64,000 nucleotides of DNA from Dactylosporangium sp. AC04546. Lineage in GTDB: Bacteria; Actinomycetota; Actinomycetes; Mycobacteriales; Micromonosporaceae. The notes under the pieces were generated by a model. It searched no databases. It was not told the origin of the DNA and saw nothing but the letters and a program-made list of their open reading frames with translations. Of this stretch, positions 3,243 through 64,000 are shown piece after piece. The position numbers and the translations under genes were made by a program. Position 1 is the stretch's first letter. Each line of letters starts with the position of its first letter. The stretch spans positions 62,001 to 126,000 of the forward strand of contig NZ_JAHYSG010000004.1 in NCBI RefSeq assembly GCF_022095675.1, read 5' to 3'.

Positions 3243-5579
3243 TTGTCCGACCGCAGTTTCGCCGCACCGCCGCGGCGGCCGCTCGTCGCCGCCGCCGCGG
3301 TGGCCGTGCTCGCGCTGCTCGCCTTCCTCGGCATCGCCGACGTCCAGCCCCCGTCGCCCCGCCCGGCGTCGGCGCCGGCCGGCGACTTCTCCGCCGGCCG
3401 GGCGTTCACCCACGTCCAGCGGATCGGCCAGGAGGTCCACGCCACCGGCAGCCCGGCCAACGACCGCGTCCGGGAGTATCTGGTGGAGACCCTCACCGGG
3501 CTGGGGCTGCGGCCGGAGGTCCAGGACACGGTCGGGGTCAACGCCGGCAAGTTCGGCGACGGCGGCATGGCCCACGTGCGCAACGTGGTCGCCGTGCTGC
3601 CCGGCAGCGCCTCGACCGGCCAGGTCGTCCTCATGGCGCACTACGACTCGGTCCAGGTGAGCTTCGGCGCCAACGACGACGGCGCCGGCACCAGCACCCT
3701 GCTGGAGGTGGCCCGGGCGCTGACCACCGGCGAGCGGCCGCGCAACGACGTCGTCTTCCTCTTCACCGACGCCGAGGAGGCCTGCCTGTGCGGGGCCGAG
3801 GCGTTCGTGAGCCGGCACCCGCTGGGCCAGAAGCCGTCCGTCGTGCTCAACTTCGAGGCCCGCGGCAGCAGCGGCCCGGCCGTCATGTTCCAGACCTCGG
3901 TGGGCAACGCCGACCTCATCGACGTCTACGCGCGCACCCCGCACCCGGTCGGCACCAGCCTCGCCGTCGAGGTCTACCGGCTGCTGTCCAACGACACCGA
4001 CTTCACGCCGTTCCTGGGCCAGAGCCGGTTCACCGGCCTCAACACGGCCTACATCGACGGCTCCAGCGTCTACCACAGCCCGTTCGACCGCCCGTCGACG
4101 ATGCACCGCTCCAGCCTCCAGCACCACGGCGACAACGCGTTGGCGCTCGCCCGCGCGTTCGGCGGGGCCGACCTGCCGCCGCTCATGAAGCCCGCCTCCG
4201 GCGACGCGGTGTACTTCCCGTTCGCCGGGCTCCTGCTGCGCTACCCGTCGGCGCTCACCTGGCCGATCGCCGCTCTCGCCCTGGTCGCCGTCGCCGCGCT
4301 GGTGTTCCTGGCCCGCCGCCGGGGGCTGACGTCGGTGCCGCGCACCCTCGCCGGCCTCGGCCTGGCGCTCGTGCCGGTCATCGTCGTCGCGGTCGCCGCC
4401 CAGCTCCTGTGGGCGCTGCTCGTGGCGATCCGCCCCGGTTACGGTGAGCTGCTCGACCCGGCCCGCCCGACCTGGTTCCGCTTCGGCGTGGTCGCGCTGA
4501 CCGCGAGCGTGCTCCTGGCGTGGTATGCGCTGAGCCGCCGCCGGCTGGGCCCGGTCCCGCTGGCGACCGGCGGCCTGGCCCTGCTCGCCGTGCTGGGCCT
4601 GGTGTTCGCGGCCGCCATCCCCGGCGGGTCCTACCTGGTGGCGATCCCGGCCCTGGCCGGCGCCCTGGCCGGCATCGCCGCCCTCTTCGTGCCGCACCAC
4701 GTCGTGAAGGTCGCCGTCCTGACCGCCGGCGCGGGCGTCGCCACGCTGATCCTGGCCCCGACGGTGGCCCTGTTCTTCCCGGCGCTGGGTCTGGCGACGG
4801 GCGCCGCCCCGGCCCTGTTCGCGATGCTGCTGGGCCTCGCGGTGCTGCCGGTGCTGGAGCCGCTGTTCCGCCCGGCCGGCGAGCCCCGGCACCGCCTGCT
4901 CGGCTCGGCCCCGGCCGCGGCGGCCCTGGTCCTGGCCCTCGTGTGCACGACGGTCGGCATGGTGGTCGACCGCTGGGACGCGGGCCACCCCGAGCCGACC
5001 CACCTGATGTATGCCCTCGACCGCGACACCGGCACCGCCGAGTGGGTCAGCCTGGAGCAGTCCCCGGGCGACTGGACCTCGGGTTACGTCCGCAACCACC
5101 AGTCGCTCAACCGCCAGTTCCCGGTCCTGCCGGAGGGCATGCTCTCGGTCGGCCCGGCCCAGACGGCCGACCTCCCGGCGCCGGTGGTGACCACGATCCC
5201 CGACTCCGGCTCGGGCTCCGCCTCGGGCGGCCGGCGCACGGTCCGCTTCCGCATCGAGTCGAAGCGCACGGTCCGCTTCATCTCCTTCTACGGCGACGTG
5301 GGCGACCACCGTGTCGTGAAGGCCACGGTGGAGGGCCGCGACGCCGTGACGTACCTGCCCGACCAGGACCGCTTCGGCGTCGTCTTCCACGCCCCACCGG
5401 CGGACGGCATCGAGGTCGAGTTGGTCCTGTCCGACGCGGCCCCGTTCACGTTGCGGGTGGTGGACGGCAGCGACGGCCTGACGGCGCTGCCGGGCTTCAC
5501 CCCTCGCCCGGCGACGGTGGGCGTCTTCGGCAGCCACTCGAGCGAGCTGGTAGCGGTGGCCAGGACGACCCAGGTCTAG
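3243..5579 (+). CDS. M28-family zinc metallopeptidase with polytopic membrane domain
   Basis: 778-residue membrane peptidase. A signal-anchor segment (residues about 15-35) precedes an extracytoplasmic M28 domain with the metal-site motifs AHYDS (His133, Asp135), NDDGAG, DAEEA and a His near YHSPFDRPS. After about residue 330 there are roughly eight to nine hydrophobic segments, then a beta-rich C-terminal domain (about 590-778). This layout is like ER metallopeptidase 1 and yeast Pff1 relatives, here probably an actinobacterial exopeptidase acting outside the membrane. The start is TTG at 3243, supported by GGAGG 8 bases upstream. The exact substrate is unknown. Confidence 0.9.
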   Translation: MSDRSFAAPPRRPLVAAAAVAVLALLAFLGIADVQPPSPRPASAPAGDFSAGRAFTHVQRIGQEVHATGSPANDRVREYLVETLTGLGLRPEVQDTVGVNAGKFGDGGMAHVRNVVAVLPGSASTGQVVLMAHYDSVQVSFGANDDGAGTSTLLEVARALTTGERPRNDVVFLFTDAEEACLCGAEAFVSRHPLGQKPSVVLNFEARGSSGPAVMFQTSVGNADLIDVYARTPHPVGTSLAVEVYRLLSNDTDFTPFLGQSRFTGLNTAYIDGSSVYHSPFDRPSTMHRSSLQHHGDNALALARAFGGADLPPLMKPASGDAVYFPFAGLLLRYPSALTWPIAALALVAVAALVFLARRRGLTSVPRTLAGLGLALVPVIVVAVAAQLLWALLVAIRPGYGELLDPARPTWFRFGVVALTASVLLAWYALSRRRLGPVPLATGGLALLAVLGLVFAAAIPGGSYLVAIPALAGALAGIAALFVPHHVVKVAVLTAGAGVATLILAPTVALFFPALGLATGAAPALFAMLLGLAVLPVLEPLFRPAGEPRHRLLGSAPAAAALVLALVCTTVGMVVDRWDAGHPEPTHLMYALDRDTGTAEWVSLEQSPGDWTSGYVRNHQSLNRQFPVLPEGMLSVGPAQTADLPAPVVTTIPDSGSGSASGGRRTVRFRIESKRTVRFISFYGDVGDHRVVKATVEGRDAVTYLPDQDRFGVVFHAPPADGIEVELVLSDAAPFTLRVVDGSDGLTALPGFTPRPATVGVFGSHSSELVAVARTTQV

Positions 5580-5682
5580 CCGTCTGTCGTCGCTGGCCGG
5601 AAAGCCCGAATCGGCTGCGGAGTTATCCACAGGGCGAGCGTCGTGCTGGCGTTCGGCGTGGTGGCGTCCTTACCGTCTACGT

Positions 5683-5994
5683 ATGGCTATCGACGTGGCC
5701 GCGGCGGGGGAGTGCACGGTCGAGGACATCTGGCGGGTGCCGGCCGTGGCCGCGGAGGGCCGCGAGGTTCGCGCGGCGCTGCGCAGTGCGCAGCGTGCGC
5801 TCACCGCGATCCTCGAGCGGGTTGAGGTGCCCGTGGTCCTGCGCGACGACGGGCGGCTGAGCTTCTTCCCGCATGACGCCGCCGAGCTCGCCGCCGTCAG
5901 GGCCGCCGTCGACGCCGCCCGGGCCGTTCACGCCCACCTGGTCGGCGTGCTCCGCCAGGCGGCCGGCGACGACGCGGCCGGCGACGACGCCTGA
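5683..5994 (+). CDS. Hypothetical protein, 103 residues
   Basis: Small protein with alternating helical heptads (RAALRSAQRALTAILERVEV) and an acidic Ala/Asp-rich tail ending in two near-identical AAGDDA units. No signal peptide or membrane span. The ATG at 5683 lacks a strong Shine-Dalgarno sequence. Codon usage (third-position GC) matches its neighbours, so it is probably a real gene, but I recognise no family. Confidence 0.5.
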   Translation: MAIDVAAAGECTVEDIWRVPAVAAEGREVRAALRSAQRALTAILERVEVPVVLRDDGRLSFFPHDAAELAAVRAAVDAARAVHAHLVGVLRQAAGDDAAGDDA

Positions 5995-51669: not shown

Positions 51670-51703
51670 CGCGCCACCACCCCCGGGCGTCGTTCCAAGG
51701 CGG

Positions 51704-51776
51704 CGAAGCCGACCGGACTCGAACCGGCGTCCTCCTCCGTGAGATTGAGGCGCGTCGACCTCTGCGCTACGGCTCC
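51704..51776 (-). tRNA. Unusual tRNA candidate, anticodon CTC (Glu)
   Basis: The minus strand gives a 73-base sequence with canonical lengths: a 7-bp acceptor stem GGAGCCG/CGGCTTC (one G-T pair), TA at 8-9, a D arm GCGCAGAGGTCGACGC with the GG pair, a 5-base variable loop AGGAC and a T arm GCCGG-TTCGAGT-CCGGT. The anticodon loop reads ATCTCAC, so the anticodon is CTC. Weak points are the A-G mismatch at 31/39, the A at 32, the C-A pair at 13/22, and no encoded CCA. It may be a divergent isoacceptor or a decayed copy. Confidence 0.6.
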
Positions 51777-57556: not shown

Positions 57557-58105
57557 GTGTCCGACCTCGTCCTGATCCTGCGGTACCGCAAGGCGGTGAC
57601 GTACGGGCATCACGTGCTGCTCGCCGCCTTGGAGGAGCACGAGACCCCGACGGATTATGAGGTGGTCTTCGCGGAGTCGGCCGCGGCCACCGTCGAGGCC
57701 ATCAAGGCCGCGCGGGCCTCCCGGGTGCTCGTGCTGTGGTCGTTCTACTCGCCCGACGCGACCGCGCTGGCGGAGGAGCTGGCGGGCATCAAGGCGGCGG
57801 CCCCGGGCGCGGTGCATGTGGCGGGCGGGGTGCACGCCACGGCGGAGCCGGTGCAGACGCTCGACCAGGGCTGGGACATCGCCGCGGTCGGCGAGGGGGA
57901 GAGCACGCTGCTGGCGCTCGTGGACAGCGCCGGCGACCCGGCGGGCATCCAGGGCCTCGTCTATCGCGACGAGCACGGCAGTCTTCGACGAACGGGCAAG
58001 GCCCATCGCGAGCCGCTGGGGCGGTACCGGGCCTTTCCCCTCACGTACAAGCGCATGAACCCGATCGAGATCACCCGCGGCTGCGTCTACGCGTGCGCGT
58101 ACTAG
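57557..58105 (+). pseudogene. Truncated B12-binding/radical SAM protein
   Basis: 182 residues in place of an expected 380 or more. The N-terminal cobalamin-binding-type domain (VTYGHHVLLAALEEHETPTDYEVVF, VAGGVHATAEP, IAAVGEGEST) matches MJ1487-type B12/radical SAM proteins. The frame stops inside the iron-sulfur motif: ITRGCVYACAY is followed at once by TAG, where the third Cys should be. No catalytic barrel follows. The GTG at 57557 sits behind GGGGAG. The stop lies within the right direct repeat, indicating truncation by a rearrangement. Confidence 0.8.
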
Positions 58106-58347: not shown

Positions 58348-61300
58348 TTAGTCGAGCCGCGAGCGTTCGAGCACCTCCTCGGTCGTGAGCGGACTGCGCG
58401 GGTGGTAGCTAAGGCAGAGCGGCGTCCGCACCTTCTGCGGTGCCTCACCCTCGGCCGCCAAGTAGAACTCGCCGGAGCGCAGCCGCGACACGTCGGGAAC
58501 GTCGCCGCCCTTCGCCTTCGCCATCTCTCGCGCGGCGTCGATCTGAATCGGGCTGTTCAGCAGGCCGAAGAACTGGGTGGCGGCGTTACCCGGAATGCGG
58601 TTGTGGAGCCCTTTCGGCGCCTGGGTGGCGAACACCAGCCCGAGACCGTACTTGCGCGCCTGAGAGGCCAGCGCGAGGGTGCTCTGCGTGCACGCCGTCA
58701 TGGTCCCCGATGGTGCAAGGGTCTGGGCCTCGTCCATCACGAACAGGCCGAGCAGGGGCCGGTCGCCGGCCGGATGCTTCTTGATGTAGGCGAAGAGCGC
58801 CATTTCGAGCTGATTGACGAAGCTTTGGCGCATGTCTTCCGACGGAAGGCCGACCAGGCTGATCACCGAGATCCGTGCGCGCTTGCCGTGCGATGGCGTG
58901 AGCAGGATCGCCGGGTCCAGCGGCGTGCTGTCGCCGCCGAACATCGGGTCATTGTCGATGGATGCGGTGAGCGTCTGGGCCAGCCCACTTGCGATTTTGT
59001 CCGCGCCGTCGAGCTCGCTGACGCCGTTCGGCAAGTCGGCGAGCGTGTCGATTAGGCCGCGCAAGGTGCCGCCGCCTCGGCGGCCATAGTGGTCGACCGC
59101 GCGCCGCAGGACGGCGAGACCGAGGTGTGCTTTGGCCGCCCGGCTATCCAGGCGAGCCCGCGGCGTCAGCGCAGCTACCGCAGAATCCACGGCCTCATTG
59201 AACTCGTCCGGGTCGTCGAGCACGCTTCTGAAGTCCGGCAACGGCTGAAAGCTCAGCGGCCTTCCGGTCTCCCGTCGTGGTGTCCACACCAGGACCTCGG
59301 TACCGGCGATGAAGGCCGCAGCTTTCTCCGCGTCCCCGGCACCCCATGCGTCGGGCGGTGCCGGCCAGGGATCGCCGAGCCTGGCCAGATCGTTGTTCGG
59401 GTCCAGCACGATGGCAGAGACGCCCTCGAGCGCGCACTCCTCGACGAGGCGCCGGATCAGCACCGTCTTGCCCGACCCGGAACCGGCAAAAATCGCGACG
59501 TGCTTGCGCAGCGACTCCATGGCCATGCGGACCGGTGCGCCGGTGGCATAGTCGTGGCCGACCGTCAGCATCGGAACCACGGACGACGCGCCGTTGACCG
59601 CCAGGTGCGGAACAGCCGGCGACCCGCCGGCCATGGCGTTCGGTTCGGTCGTCTCGGGTCGTTCCAGGTCTGCCATCGCTCGGCGGAATATTTCGATCTT
59701 GCTGGCCGGCCGGCGCGCCATCAACCACGCCCGAAGGTCGACGTGGGCCTCATCGAGCAGGACCTTTAGCGCGGCCAGCGTCCGCAAATCGGACTCGCCG
59801 AACGCGATCGTCGCCGTGTTCCGGCCCTTGAGCTCGTCGATGACGGTAAGCGTCTTGGGACCGGACCAGGCGCCGTTGCGCAGGAAGTAGAGCCGGCGCT
59901 TGGACACCCGGCCGTCGACGCCGGCGGCCATGGCCGCGCGCCTGATGCGGTGCAATGCGGCTACGCCGTGGTGCTTGGCACTGATGGCCCGGAAGGACCA
60001 GTGGGCCTGATCCTCGTTGTCCTCGTCGAGCGTGCGCCGCAGCCGCGCGTGCAGTGCCGGCTTGGCGCTCGGCGGACCGTCTTGGCTGAGGGTCTCCTCG
60101 GCCGCACCCTGCTCGATGATCCACGCCATCAGCCCGGCCGACAGCAGGCCCGGCACGACGGCGTCCTCGCGGTCGGGGTTGAGCGGTGCGGCGACGTCGG
60201 CTTCGTCCCGCAGTTCGGCGAAGCGGGCGTCGAGTTGATCGCGGACGTCATCCGGGATGTCAGTGGGGGCGAGCTGCGGCGCCGCGCTCTGCTCGGCGCT
60301 CGGCGGATCGCCCAACTTTCTGAGCTCGCGGACCTCGTCGTGCAGCAGGCAGTTCCGCACGTGCTCGTCGATTTCGATGAGCAACTGCCGCGGGGTGTGC
60401 TTCACCGCCGTGTCGAACGCCTCGGGGCGCACCGGCCACGTCGGGTAGGGCGGCGTGAACCGGACCTGGCGGTAGCTGTGGGCGAAGCGCTTCTCGATCA
60501 AGGTCCGGGCGATGGCCGGCTTCTGGATCGTCAGCATCTCCGCGGGCTCGCGGAACCGGTCGCGCACGGTGTCGGTCGTCCGGCTCTTGATGAGCATCCA
60601 CGACGGCGGGATGCACGCGACGAGGGTCAGGGTTCGCCGGGTGTACTCCCGCAGCGCCATGAGGCCGTGCGCGAGTTGCTCGAGGACAAGTATCTGGGCC
60701 CAGTCGCCGGTGCTCGACGGCTCGATCGGCTGGCCTTCCTGCGACGTGATCGACGACTGCGATATCAGCGTGTCGATCTGGTCGACGGCCATCACCGAGG
60801 GTCCGGTGAGCGCCAACAGCCGGGACAGCTCGCGGACGATCTCCTGTGCGGTGCGCGGCCGGCGCCGCATGCGCCATTTGGTGCGCTCCTCCGGATCGGC
60901 GTCCGGCTCGGAGCTGAAGTAGTTCTCCGCGAGGTCGCGATGCGTGACGTCGTCGGAGGCGGACAATGCGATCGCGCGTGCGGTGTCGTCGCACTCGCGC
61001 GCAACCTCCCGGTCGTGGTCGGCGAGGCCCTGGAGGAATGCGTCCAGGGCGGCCGGGGTCAGCTCCGTCTCGCCCATGACCGCCCGGCGCGCCGACCGGG
61101 GAGCGCCGACCACCGACGAGAGCCGCCGCAGGAACAGCCGCATCTGCGTATCGCTGCCCGGAACCGTGCGGAAGAGGCCGCTGAGCATCGAGTCCAGGAC
61201 GCTTTCCCAGAACCCCTTGGCATCCAGCACGCTCACCAGGAAGAAATAGCCGCCCTGATCCTGGATCTGCTGGCGGACCCAGCCGAGCATGTGCGTCTTG

Positions 61301-61506
61301 CCCGAGCCGCGTCGGCCCTTCAGCACCAGGCCCAGCGGGCTGCCGTCGGCGCTTTTGTGCGCGTCGGCCATGCCCGCCAGCACGTCGTTGACGACGCCCT
61401 GGTGTAGCCCTTCCACATGGAACATCGATGGGCGCCAGACGTCGTCGGGCACAGGCGCCCAGTCGAACCTGAGTGCCGCCAGAGCCTTGCGTTCGTCTTC
61501 GTTCAT
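58348..61506 (-). CDS. Dual P-loop ATPase with C-terminal HerA/FtsK-like domain
   Basis: 1052 residues. N-terminal AAA/STAND-like ATPase: Walker A KGRRGSGKTHML (63-74), Walker-B-like PSVMAVDQIDTLI (about 237-250), then an arginine-rich segment RTTDTVRDRFREP. The middle (about 390-630) is helical and unrecognised. C-terminal HerA/DUF87-like motor: Walker A FAGSGSGKTVLI (about 673-684), VLDPNNDLARLGDPW, Walker B FVMDEAQTLAPSG (about 922) and VFATQAPKGLHNRI. HerA-like motors form hexamers that pump DNA. The ATG at 61506 overlaps the stop of the winged-helix gene. Two motors in one chain beside a nuclease suggests DNA-targeting defence. Confidence 0.85.
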   Translation of the reverse strand: MNEDERKALAALRFDWAPVPDDVWRPSMFHVEGLHQGVVNDVLAGMADAHKSADGSPLGLVLKGRRGSGKTHMLGWVRQQIQDQGGYFFLVSVLDAKGFWESVLDSMLSGLFRTVPGSDTQMRLFLRRLSSVVGAPRSARRAVMGETELTPAALDAFLQGLADHDREVARECDDTARAIALSASDDVTHRDLAENYFSSEPDADPEERTKWRMRRRPRTAQEIVRELSRLLALTGPSVMAVDQIDTLISQSSITSQEGQPIEPSSTGDWAQILVLEQLAHGLMALREYTRRTLTLVACIPPSWMLIKSRTTDTVRDRFREPAEMLTIQKPAIARTLIEKRFAHSYRQVRFTPPYPTWPVRPEAFDTAVKHTPRQLLIEIDEHVRNCLLHDEVRELRKLGDPPSAEQSAAPQLAPTDIPDDVRDQLDARFAELRDEADVAAPLNPDREDAVVPGLLSAGLMAWIIEQGAAEETLSQDGPPSAKPALHARLRRTLDEDNEDQAHWSFRAISAKHHGVAALHRIRRAAMAAGVDGRVSKRRLYFLRNGAWSGPKTLTVIDELKGRNTATIAFGESDLRTLAALKVLLDEAHVDLRAWLMARRPASKIEIFRRAMADLERPETTEPNAMAGGSPAVPHLAVNGASSVVPMLTVGHDYATGAPVRMAMESLRKHVAIFAGSGSGKTVLIRRLVEECALEGVSAIVLDPNNDLARLGDPWPAPPDAWGAGDAEKAAAFIAGTEVLVWTPRRETGRPLSFQPLPDFRSVLDDPDEFNEAVDSAVAALTPRARLDSRAAKAHLGLAVLRRAVDHYGRRGGGTLRGLIDTLADLPNGVSELDGADKIASGLAQTLTASIDNDPMFGGDSTPLDPAILLTPSHGKRARISVISLVGLPSEDMRQSFVNQLEMALFAYIKKHPAGDRPLLGLFVMDEAQTLAPSGTMTACTQSTLALASQARKYGLGLVFATQAPKGLHNRIPGNAATQFFGLLNSPIQIDAAREMAKAKGGDVPDVSRLRSGEFYLAAEGEAPQKVRTPLCLSYHPRSPLTTEEVLERSRLD

Positions 61507-62126
61507 CGCGTTCCGATGGCCATGAGGTGCGTGTCCTGCCCCCCGACGCGCACGGCGTAGCGGCGGTCCTCGGCGGACAGCGTCTTCTGATTGGACTCGG
61601 GCATCATCTCGACGTCGTTGGCTCGGCTCAGCATGCTGAAGGCCTCGTCCAACGCGTCACTCGGCACATCGCTGAGCTTTCTCCGGACATCAGTGTGCTT
61701 CACCCACGCGCCGGGACGGGGCGCCAGCGATTTGTAAGCCTCGCGGATCCGTGCCTCGGGGTCGTCCTGTACCTCGGAGGTGTGGGAGAACATTTCGCTG
61801 AAGCGGTGGTATGCGCCGCGTCCCAGCACCCGTTCCCGCAGGTTGTCGTGCAACGCGCTCAAGGCCGCACCCAGTGCCTTGGCCCGAGGACTGTCGAAGT
61901 TCAGCGCCTGGTGCATACGATCCCAGCCTTTGTCGTCGAGCTGGTGGACGAAGGACCGGCCCACCTTCTCGCTCCTGACGTAGCCGGCTTCGTTGAGCCT
62001 TCTGCGGCTCTCGCCGGTGAGCGTGATCTGATAACGGCCCTGCAACTCGGGATTGGAGATTTCCCGGGCCTCCGCCATCAACACGATAAGCAGCGCGCTT
62101 TCCGAGGGAGTGAGATCGTCAGCCAC
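61503..62126 (-). CDS. Winged-helix-like protein of the ATPase/nuclease operon
   Basis: 207 residues. The N-terminal about 75 residues (LTPSESALLIVLMAEA, then LTGESRRRLNEAGYVRSEK and FVHQLDDKGWDRM) have the spacing of a MarR/PadR-type winged helix. The remainder is helical, with HTDVRRKLSDVPSDALDEAF, possibly a second winged helix. It may be the DNA-binding adaptor of the complex. The GTG at 62126 overlaps the nuclease stop by 8 bases (GTGGCTGA), and its stop overlaps the ATPase ATG by 4. Confidence 0.7.
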   Translation of the reverse strand: MADDLTPSESALLIVLMAEAREISNPELQGRYQITLTGESRRRLNEAGYVRSEKVGRSFVHQLDDKGWDRMHQALNFDSPRAKALGAALSALHDNLRERVLGRGAYHRFSEMFSHTSEVQDDPEARIREAYKSLAPRPGAWVKHTDVRRKLSDVPSDALDEAFSMLSRANDVEMMPESNQKTLSAEDRRYAVRVGGQDTHLMAIGTR

Positions 62127-63138
62127 CCTGCTGTCCTTTCGTTAAGTCATGCCTTCGGGTCCGAATGAGGTGTTCTATCTGAGCTGCCACCGCCTGCGCG
62201 TCGTACCGTACCCGCGCATTGGTGAACCTGAGCACGGCGTAGCCATCCAGCTGCAGCCGGACGTCGCGGTCCCGGTCGGCGTCGTACTGGGCGGCCCGGC
62301 AGTGCTCCGGCCCGTCGAGTTCCACCGCCACTCGCTCGGCCGGCCACAGCAGGTCGGGGCGGATCGGGTTGCGCACCGCGGCCGGCTGATAGATCGCGTT
62401 CCAAATCCGGCCGTACGCCCAATGCTCCTGCCGCCGCAGCACCGCCTCGAGCGTGGCCTCGACCGTGCTTCTCGGATGTGGTCGTCCGGCGGCCGCCGCG
62501 GCCGGTAACGGCGGTGGCGTGAGGTGCACGGTGCTGAAGCGCTCCAGGCCAGGCGACCTGGCCCCGGTGAGCCAGATGCCCAGCCGCCCGCGATCGGCGA
62601 GCCACTCCGCACCCGCAATTGCGACATTGCCGACCGGCATGGACAGCACCAGCCGATCGCGGCGGAAGCCCGATGCGATGACACGGGCCAGCCCCGCGAT
62701 CCGCGCCTCGGGACGCAGTCGTGCCCGCGGTGCCGCCCGGCCGGTGAGCGCACGTTCCGCGAGATCGGCAAGGAAGACGCTTGCGTACCCCGCGGCGCGG
62801 GCCCGCTCGATCGCCACGGCCCTGATCGCGGCCAACGCCGCCCCCTGGGTTCCGTCGAGCTCATCCGACTCGGGCAGCCACCCGTGGATCAACTGCCGGG
62901 CTATCGCGTCGAGGACATCGACCACCTCGGCCACGAAGGCCGCCGCCGTACCGTCGCCCGCGGTCGCGGGCACCACCTCGACGGACGCCGGGAGATCGTC
63001 GTGGCGAGCCATCGCCGCGACGACGTCGGCCGCCGTTACTCCGCTGAGATGCACGACGCGGTCGACCGGGATCTCGGCCAGCCGCTCGTGCCAGGCCGCC
63101 TTCCCGTCGCCGGGTTTCGTGATCGTTTCCGCCATCAC
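62119..63138 (-). CDS. DUF559-like (PD-(D/E)XK) nuclease-domain protein
   Basis: 339 residues. The C-terminal about 90 residues follow the DUF559/Vsr-like endonuclease pattern: RPDLLWPAERVAVELDGPEHC with Asp and Glu-x-Asp metal positions, then RDRDVRLQLDGYAVLRFTNARV. The N-terminal two thirds are Ala/Arg-rich helical sequence I do not recognise. The start is a GTG at 63138 overlapping the upstream stop (GTGA). Predicted effector nuclease of the operon; activity is not proven by the motif. Confidence 0.75.
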   Translation of the reverse strand: MMAETITKPGDGKAAWHERLAEIPVDRVVHLSGVTAADVVAAMARHDDLPASVEVVPATAGDGTAAAFVAEVVDVLDAIARQLIHGWLPESDELDGTQGAALAAIRAVAIERARAAGYASVFLADLAERALTGRAAPRARLRPEARIAGLARVIASGFRRDRLVLSMPVGNVAIAGAEWLADRGRLGIWLTGARSPGLERFSTVHLTPPPLPAAAAAGRPHPRSTVEATLEAVLRRQEHWAYGRIWNAIYQPAAVRNPIRPDLLWPAERVAVELDGPEHCRAAQYDADRDRDVRLQLDGYAVLRFTNARVRYDAQAVAAQIEHLIRTRRHDLTKGQQGG

Positions 63139-64000
63139 GGCTCCCGCGGCACGTAGGGCGCGCCGTCCGCGTCGAGGCCATGGGTGCGCAGCCGGTCGAC
63201 GAGCGCACGGTCGACGGTCTCGTCGGCGTTGAGCAGGGCGACGAGCCGCTCGGCGGCCAGGAATGTGCCGGCGTCGACCTCGCGCCGCAGCTCGACCTCG
63301 TTGCGGAGGTCGAACAGCAACGTGGTCAGCTGGCGGGCGGCCGTCACGTCGCCTCCCGCGATCCCGCGCCGCAGGTGGGCCAGCTGAGCCCGGACCGCGG
63401 CGCCGTCAGCCGCCGTGTTGGAGTCGTGGAGCTTTTTCAGCTGCCGGGCGGCCGCCTGGTCGCCCGCTTCGGCCCGCCGTTGCAGCAGGTCCATCCGGCC
63501 GTGCGAGGCCAGCAGTTCGGCCAGGGCATCGGCGGCCGGCTGCTTGCCCGCGTCGGCCCGCGCCTGCAGCTCGTCGATAGCACCGCGATCGGCCAGGAGC
63601 GTTGCGAGGTCCTCCTCGGCCAGTTGGCTTCCGGCGTCGGCCCTGGCTCGCAGTGCGTCGGCCTCGCCATCGTCGACGAGCAGCTCGGCGAGGCGCCGGC
63701 CGGCTTCGGCATCGCCGGCGGCCGCGGCGGTGCGCAGTTCGTCGACCCGCTCGGCCAGCGCCACGATCTGGTCGTGGCGAGCCGTCGTGACGTGATCGTC
63801 CGGCGTCGTCTCCAGCTGCCGGCACAGCACGTCGAGCGCCTCCTGTACGCGTCCACCGCGGAACAGCGCGCTCGCGAGCTCGACCGCCCCCTCACCGTGG
63901 AGGTCGAGGAGCCGCCGCAACGCCTGCTCCTCGTGGCAATAGCGCATCCGGATGGCCGCCGCGAGGGCAAGGCGGCGCAGGTCCTCCGCGTCCTCGACAG
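63135..64000 (-). CDS. Helical-repeat protein (partial, runs off right edge)
   Basis: At least 288 residues. The reading frame remains open to the end of the window (VEDAEDLRRLALAAAIRMRY precedes the first internal ATG at 63947), so the true N-terminus lies outside. It consists of about 35-residue helical repeats with the pattern A-LRARADAG-A--LA-LLADRG: units near LRARADAGSQLAEEDLATLL, LQARADAGKQPAADALAELL and LQRRAEAGDQAAARQLKKL. Such solenoids act as sensors or scaffolds. Its stop overlaps the nuclease start, so the four genes form one translationally coupled operon. Confidence 0.75.
   Translation of the reverse strand, partial: VEDAEDLRRLALAAAIRMRYCHEEQALRRLLDLHGEGAVELASALFRGGRVQEALDVLCRQLETTPDDHVTTARHDQIVALAERVDELRTAAAAGDAEAGRRLAELLVDDGEADALRARADAGSQLAEEDLATLLADRGAIDELQARADAGKQPAADALAELLASHGRMDLLQRRAEAGDQAAARQLKKLHDSNTAADGAAVRAQLAHLRRGIAGGDVTAARQLTTLLFDLRNEVELRREVDAGTFLAAERLVALLNADETVDRALVDRLRTHGLDADGAPYVPREP

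Follow-up and report, generated by a model that had tools for sequence, protein, structure and literature searches.

We analysed a 64,000-nucleotide stretch of the Dactylosporangium sp. AC04546 genome (contig NZ_JAHYSG010000004.1, positions 62,001 to 126,000; hereafter the window), in which four minus-strand genes encode a repeat protein, a DUF559 nuclease, a winged-helix (wH) protein and a dual ATPase. The genes overlap at all three junctions, as read from both the gene coordinates and the junction strings: GTGATG between genes 1 and 2 (~63135), GTGGCTGA between genes 2 and 3 (~62119), and ATGA between genes 3 and 4 (61503). They are a real operon; the original prediction had called these overlaps and the four types of part, including the nuclease and the HerA-like motor, and both calls were borne out. 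Promoter and terminator scans gave no signal above shuffled sequences. The features are collected in Table 1, where coordinates above 64000 carry the window numbering on into the contig.

Gene 1, previously described as a helical-repeat solenoid, does contain TPR-like repeats, but it also has a helix-turn-helix (HTH)-like part and a P-loop NTPase, and it extends past the window. The NTPase is intact, lies N-terminal to the repeats and is kept in the homologues, where neither the G-x-x-x-x-G-K-T positions of Walker A nor the D of Walker B vary in 23/23 aligned rows. By our reading of the sequence, the protein may carry an N-terminal HTH and belong to the STAND class, labels that no Pfam model confirms. 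The family profile of gene 2 matches the PDB entry 3hrl ("Endonuclease-Like Protein") with an E-value (E) of 1e-10; a region of ~220 amino acids (aa) precedes its nuclease domain, in which D262, E273 and D275 are the putative catalytic residues. For gene 4, HerA was the best fold match of the motor and mad8 its best PADLOC model, which 15/15 scanned members match. The predicted folds of the AAA+ domain and of the first winged helix of gene 3 also match known ones, less strongly than the motor does. The middle domain of gene 4 is a possible inactive restriction endonuclease (REase) on the basis of its structure model, in which helices and strands follow one another as in that fold, and no D/E/K set of an REase site is visible at its conserved strand positions. 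Low-scoring Pfam matches of this domain and PDB matches such as hemagglutinin were not used, and calmodulin-like PDB matches of the wH profile (best E 1.7e-4) were set aside in view of the two winged-helix-like units in the model.

Table 1. Features of the operon and of the edges of its island, in window coordinates
Feature	Position	Strand	Basis or remark
Gene 1, whole, 720 aa	63135 to ~65297, extended coordinates (L003:6136-8298), beyond window edge	-	HTH-like/P-loop NTPase/TPR-like
Gene 1, 3' part, helical-repeat region	63135..64000	-	TPR_14 in 9/23 homologues
Gene 2, DUF559 nuclease, 338-339 aa	62119..63138	-	Pfam DUF559, E 5.7e-11
Gene 2, PD-(D/E)XK-type catalytic domain	62164..62391	-	D262, E273, D275 invariant in 27/27 (alignment)
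Gene 3, two predicted winged helices, 207 aa	61503..62126	-	
Gene 3, N-terminal winged HTH (wHTH), residues 7-63	61938..62108	-	Structure model and fold search
Gene 3, C-terminal wHTH-like unit, residues 123-204	61515..61760	-	Model secondary structure; barely probed by fold search
Gene 4, dual ATPase, 1052 aa	58348..61506	-	Structure model, predicted local distance difference test (pLDDT) 83.3, predicted template modelling score (pTM) 0.57
Gene 4, N-terminal AAA+ domain, Orc/Cdc6/TnsC-like, residues 6-403	60298..61491	-	
Walker A of AAA+ domain, residues 64-71	61294..61317	-	G67, G69, K70, T71 invariant in 62/62
Gene 4, middle domain, residues 447-598	59713..60168	-	Model: helix-strand-strand-strand-helix-strand order
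Gene 4, HerA/FtsK motor domain, residues 643-1043	58378..59580	-	
Walker A of HerA motor, residues 674-681	59464..59487	-	A674, G677-T681 invariant in 62/62
Radical-SAM gene, 5' fragment, island left edge	57557..58105 (also delimited as 57563-58102)	+	tblastn and alignment of copies
Radical-SAM gene, 3' part, island right side	~80408-81151 (extended)		tblastn and alignment of copies
Large serine recombinase beside island right edge	78979-80382 (extended)		

To see which parts stay together, we compared 121 loci, namely 41 from the host's taxonomic family (the window's own and 40 of the other 51 counted) and 80 named GTDB loci, the best of at least 566 relatives. Removing six duplicates left 115 unique loci. 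The wH gene lies directly upstream of the dual-ATPase gene in 121/121 loci, with a gap of at most 97 nucleotides (starts estimated from profile alignment), and the two genes overlap in 106. The invariant core is thus the wH protein plus the dual ATPase, and the partner differs by clade. Partners were labelled with profiles from clusters of our first locus set, so that other partner types fall under "none". DUF559 was the commonest partner (64/115, with or without the TPR protein) and stood alone in 59 loci, while the HTH-STAND-TPR protein was found without DUF559 in 20. The window's own combination of the two occurs in only five of the 115 loci, and the four-gene set, which had been proposed as one machine of fixed stoichiometry, does not hold up as a unit. 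A WD40 protein is the partner in 13 loci, all divergent and 10 of them with Trypco1; for the one case scanned, Pfam recognised WD40 repeats and a neighbouring Trypco1, and by our reading this protein may also have trypsin-like and P-loop parts. A downstream AbiU partner was seen in seven loci, and the one scanned matched Pfam AIPR (E 9.6e-44) and PADLOC AbiU (E 7e-110). Inspection of six of the loci labelled "none" suggests OLD-like AAA ATPases upstream in two (L057 and L059), by our own reading rather than a family scan.

The ATPase tree comes from a single FastTree run and has some long branches (L070, L071, L073, L058). On it, the partner labels require 7 changes if the "none" rows are left out and 13 if they are kept, compared with an average of 52.2 after shuffling; partners are therefore stable within a clade and swapped only occasionally. 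Two changes are needed to explain the window's four-gene set. The trio of DUF559, wH and ATPase genes also occurs, with its order kept, on a plasmid of Methylobacterium, where DUF559 lies 16 nucleotides before the wH gene and the latter overlaps the ATPase gene, and in Tsukamurella, where both junctions overlap. In the Tsukamurella locus (L181), whose record is filed as a plasmid, the trio shares the interval between the ribosomal protein genes rpsQ and rplN with a PIN/VapB-type pair and a DEAD/DEAH helicase. A nucleoside-phosphorylase-like gene, identified by our reading, adjoins the operon in eight of the 80 named loci (L074:2654-3916, L088, L091, L093, L095, L098, L099 and L102), all with the TPR partner; the L074 protein matches the PDC-M60C and PN-superfamily effector models.

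The spread within the host family is patchy, in line with the original prediction: the ATPase is present in 38 of 61 genomes, own included, with no match in the other 23 (E 1e-50), and 13 of the carriers hold two or three loci by our count. The wH protein is found in 40/61 (E 1e-6). Of the two additional genomes, G051 has it beside a short DUF559-like open reading frame (our reading), and the 14 kb retrieved there contain no ATPase; in G059 the match is only partial. In a wider phylum sample, 2/198 genomes matched, one being the window's own, in a search limited to four scored candidates per genome, which could have overlooked some. Phage records gave no match at E 1e-10, and viral contigs gave four weak matches, in the motor region. 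The distribution across genomes is that of cargo that is gained and lost, not of a housekeeping gene. Among 7996 candidates scored, 2684 clusters match the window ATPase at E 1e-3 (other HerA proteins may account for the weakest matches); for the Methylobacterium ATPase, 1446 of 7995 match at 1e-30. The names of the relatives include Methylobacterium, Methylorubrum, Lichenibacterium and Rhodopseudomonas.

The window operon lies on a mobile island of ~22 kb within a split B12-binding radical-SAM gene, with a serine recombinase at its right side; the position beside a rearranged locus, noted in the original prediction, is confirmed. Inside the island are two more radical-SAM 5' fragments and one full-length copy, on the opposite strand (66173-66724, 67988-68383 and 75042-76358). 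The fragments at 57557 and 66173 end in an identical junction string, as if cassettes had been inserted at one site one after another, each supplying a new 5' end. Ten of the 61 family genomes have the radical-SAM gene and three (own, G047 and G029) have extra 5' fragments, which stop near the same codon except for one own fragment that stops earlier. In G047, a distant copy of the operon, with an ATPase 47% identical to the window's, lies between a radical-SAM fragment and the full copy. The radical-SAM gene is a possible integration hot spot. The radical-SAM positions in these two other genera are 4653-5960 and 13308-13865 of L059 (G047) and at G029:C17:35745-38393. Other island genes include a DpnII-MboI REase divergent from gene 1, a Replic_Relax gene, and a pair matching PDC-M05A/PDC-M05B (L003:9890-10896), a MarR-type HTH/nucleotidyltransferase with a small partner that may be of MNT/HEPN type by our reading. 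At 69657-71670 in extended coordinates (L003:12658-14668) lie Multiubiquitin (Pfam E 8.7e-11) and a ThiF/E1 gene that PADLOC E1-E2 models match, with a weak Prok-E2_E match (E 0.006) between them. A tRNA-Glu (CTC) gene on the minus strand at 51702-51776 was not taken as the island edge.

The closest described relatives are mobile operons from an analysis of Dnd systems (Rakesh, Aravind, Krishnan 2024, PMC10853773), which combine an Orc/CDC6 ATPase, an inactive REase, an active REase, a HerA/FtsK ATPase and a wHTH. According to the available part of that paper, they are predicted counter-invader "capture systems" that capture invader DNA; the inactive REase is inserted between the AAA+ and the wHTH, the active one comes from one of two families, one of them AbiJ-type, and the HerA/FtsK belongs to clade 2, 4 or 5 of the paper's tree. 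The same capture idea is repeated in the available part of PMC12839542 (2026). Like these systems as described there, the window operon has an Orc/Cdc6-like AAA+, a HerA/FtsK motor near DndH, a putative active REase, a wHTH protein and a mobile setting, whereas the main text of PMC10853773 mentions neither DUF559 nor AIPR, and neither the partner repertoire nor the cross-phylum trio appears in the available parts of the two papers. The Orc/CDC6-family AAA+, the HerA/FtsK ATPase and the wHTH component are all found, while the middle domain is a candidate for the inactive REase and DUF559 one for the active REase, so by its anatomy the operon is likely a variant of the capture systems and not a proven member. 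The set had been put forward as possibly undescribed, which goes too far for the general idea, since operons with these components were predicted in 2024 (PMC10853773). We found no description of the exact operon in the literature searched and no whole named system in PADLOC.

Filing the operon as MADS, Sir2-HerA, HerA-NurA or Tn7 was considered and dropped. MADS is an eight-gene locus, mad1-mad8. The window motor shares its best PADLOC model with that system, but the mad8 match covers the motor only and genes 1-3 match no mad model. No Dnd family, Sir2, DUF4297 or NurA is among the profile matches listed for genes 1-4, an absence that does not by itself exclude a family. Compared with DndH of DndFGH, the window ATPase has an AAA+ domain before the motor, and this AAA+ also forms the N-terminal part that sets gene 4 apart from Sir2-HerA and DUF4297-HerA. 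The partner nuclease is DUF559, in contrast to HerA-NurA repair. Unlike Tn7 with TnsA and TnsC, the operon has no TnsB-type gene and its HerA motor is fused, and unlike AbiU/AIPR abortive infection loci, the window locus has no AbiU.

We consider it fairly probable that this is a mobile counter-invader operon, built on the invariant core, that captures and cuts foreign DNA. Gene order, gene coupling, intact motifs and the matches of the predicted folds are the observed part of the mechanism. The winged helices and AAA+ domain would recognise and load on invader DNA, or on a DNA structure that the invader makes; the HerA part would assemble as a ring and pump DNA, and the DUF559 nuclease would cut what is pumped. 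In the window's sub-lineage, the upstream HTH-STAND-TPR protein would probably be the sensor or switch, dependent on nucleotides, by which the complex of nuclease and motor is licensed.

Several results weigh against this reading. The nuclease is dispensable in some lineages, since 20/115 loci have the TPR protein but lack DUF559, and 11/115 have no recognised partner, three of these at contig edges. With Foldseek alone, neither the wH protein nor the AAA+ domain had a match reaching E 0.001; for the middle domain, sequence searches of PDB and Pfam returned no match backing an REase fold, and the fold search left the domain uncovered. The literature searched held no functional test of any family member. 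Finally, the window copy clearly has the expected defence-gene neighbourhood, but the other loci tested show it only weakly. At a PADLOC threshold of E 1e-15, 7 to 18 of 124 flank proteins matched, seven of them to PDC-M60C (132 proteins from 70 loci, less eight small ones judged to be parts of Trypco1 partners, leaving 69 loci), and random family genes matched only somewhat less often, in 2 to 4 of 103 cases (from 17 of 19 stretches). Because this difference is small, we claim no defence-gene enrichment across loci.

The main rival is a suicide or dormancy output, which we judge unlikely: the core would only detect invader DNA, STAND-TPR, AbiU and WD40 proteins would be effectors or triggers, and DUF559 would cut host DNA once activated. 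Partner swaps, in which the core stays and its companion changes, fit such a device, as do the AbiU-type partner in 7/115 loci and the nucleoside-phosphorylase-like gene beside eight TPR-partnered operons. The prevalence of DUF559, kept across phyla, fits direct cutting by a motor-nuclease complex at least as well. Very unlikely, in our view, is a module for DNA mobility or transfer (of a plasmid or integrative and conjugative element, or by Tn7-like transposition), as the pairing of a TnsC-like AAA+ with a TnsA-like nuclease and a motor might suggest. Outside the core and its partners, each protein cluster is found in at most 11/80 named loci, and by our reading the two commonest are an ABC transporter and an SDR-type enzyme; no transposase or transfer gene was seen travelling with the core among neighbours of which part were family-scanned, and the phage records lack a match. 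A HerA-NurA-type complex with a housekeeping role in repair or segregation, for which HerA as the best fold match of the motor would speak, is highly improbable and already disfavoured by the distribution, given the 23 family genomes lacking a match, the several copies in 13 genomes, the lack of NurA among the Pfam matches and the varied neighbours.

Beyond the counter-invader reading of the window operon, we put forward tentatively, and with less than even confidence, that the core of tandem winged helix and Orc/Cdc6::HerA is the platform of a large immune family, present in Actinomycetota and Alphaproteobacteria at the least, that takes alternative sensor or killing modules (DUF559, STAND-TPR, AbiU, WD40 with Trypco1, perhaps OLD-like ATPases), one capture machine being wired to outputs that differ among lineages. 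The five loci in which TPR and DUF559 occur together resemble intermediates in which the replacement of one output by another could be studied. Many proteins of the ATPase family sit in databases as "ATP-binding protein" or "HerA domain". If the core is indeed an immune motor, this would explain such genes, make it possible to study how HerA rings locate the DNA of invaders, and show that a single motor can be wired to several kinds of output.

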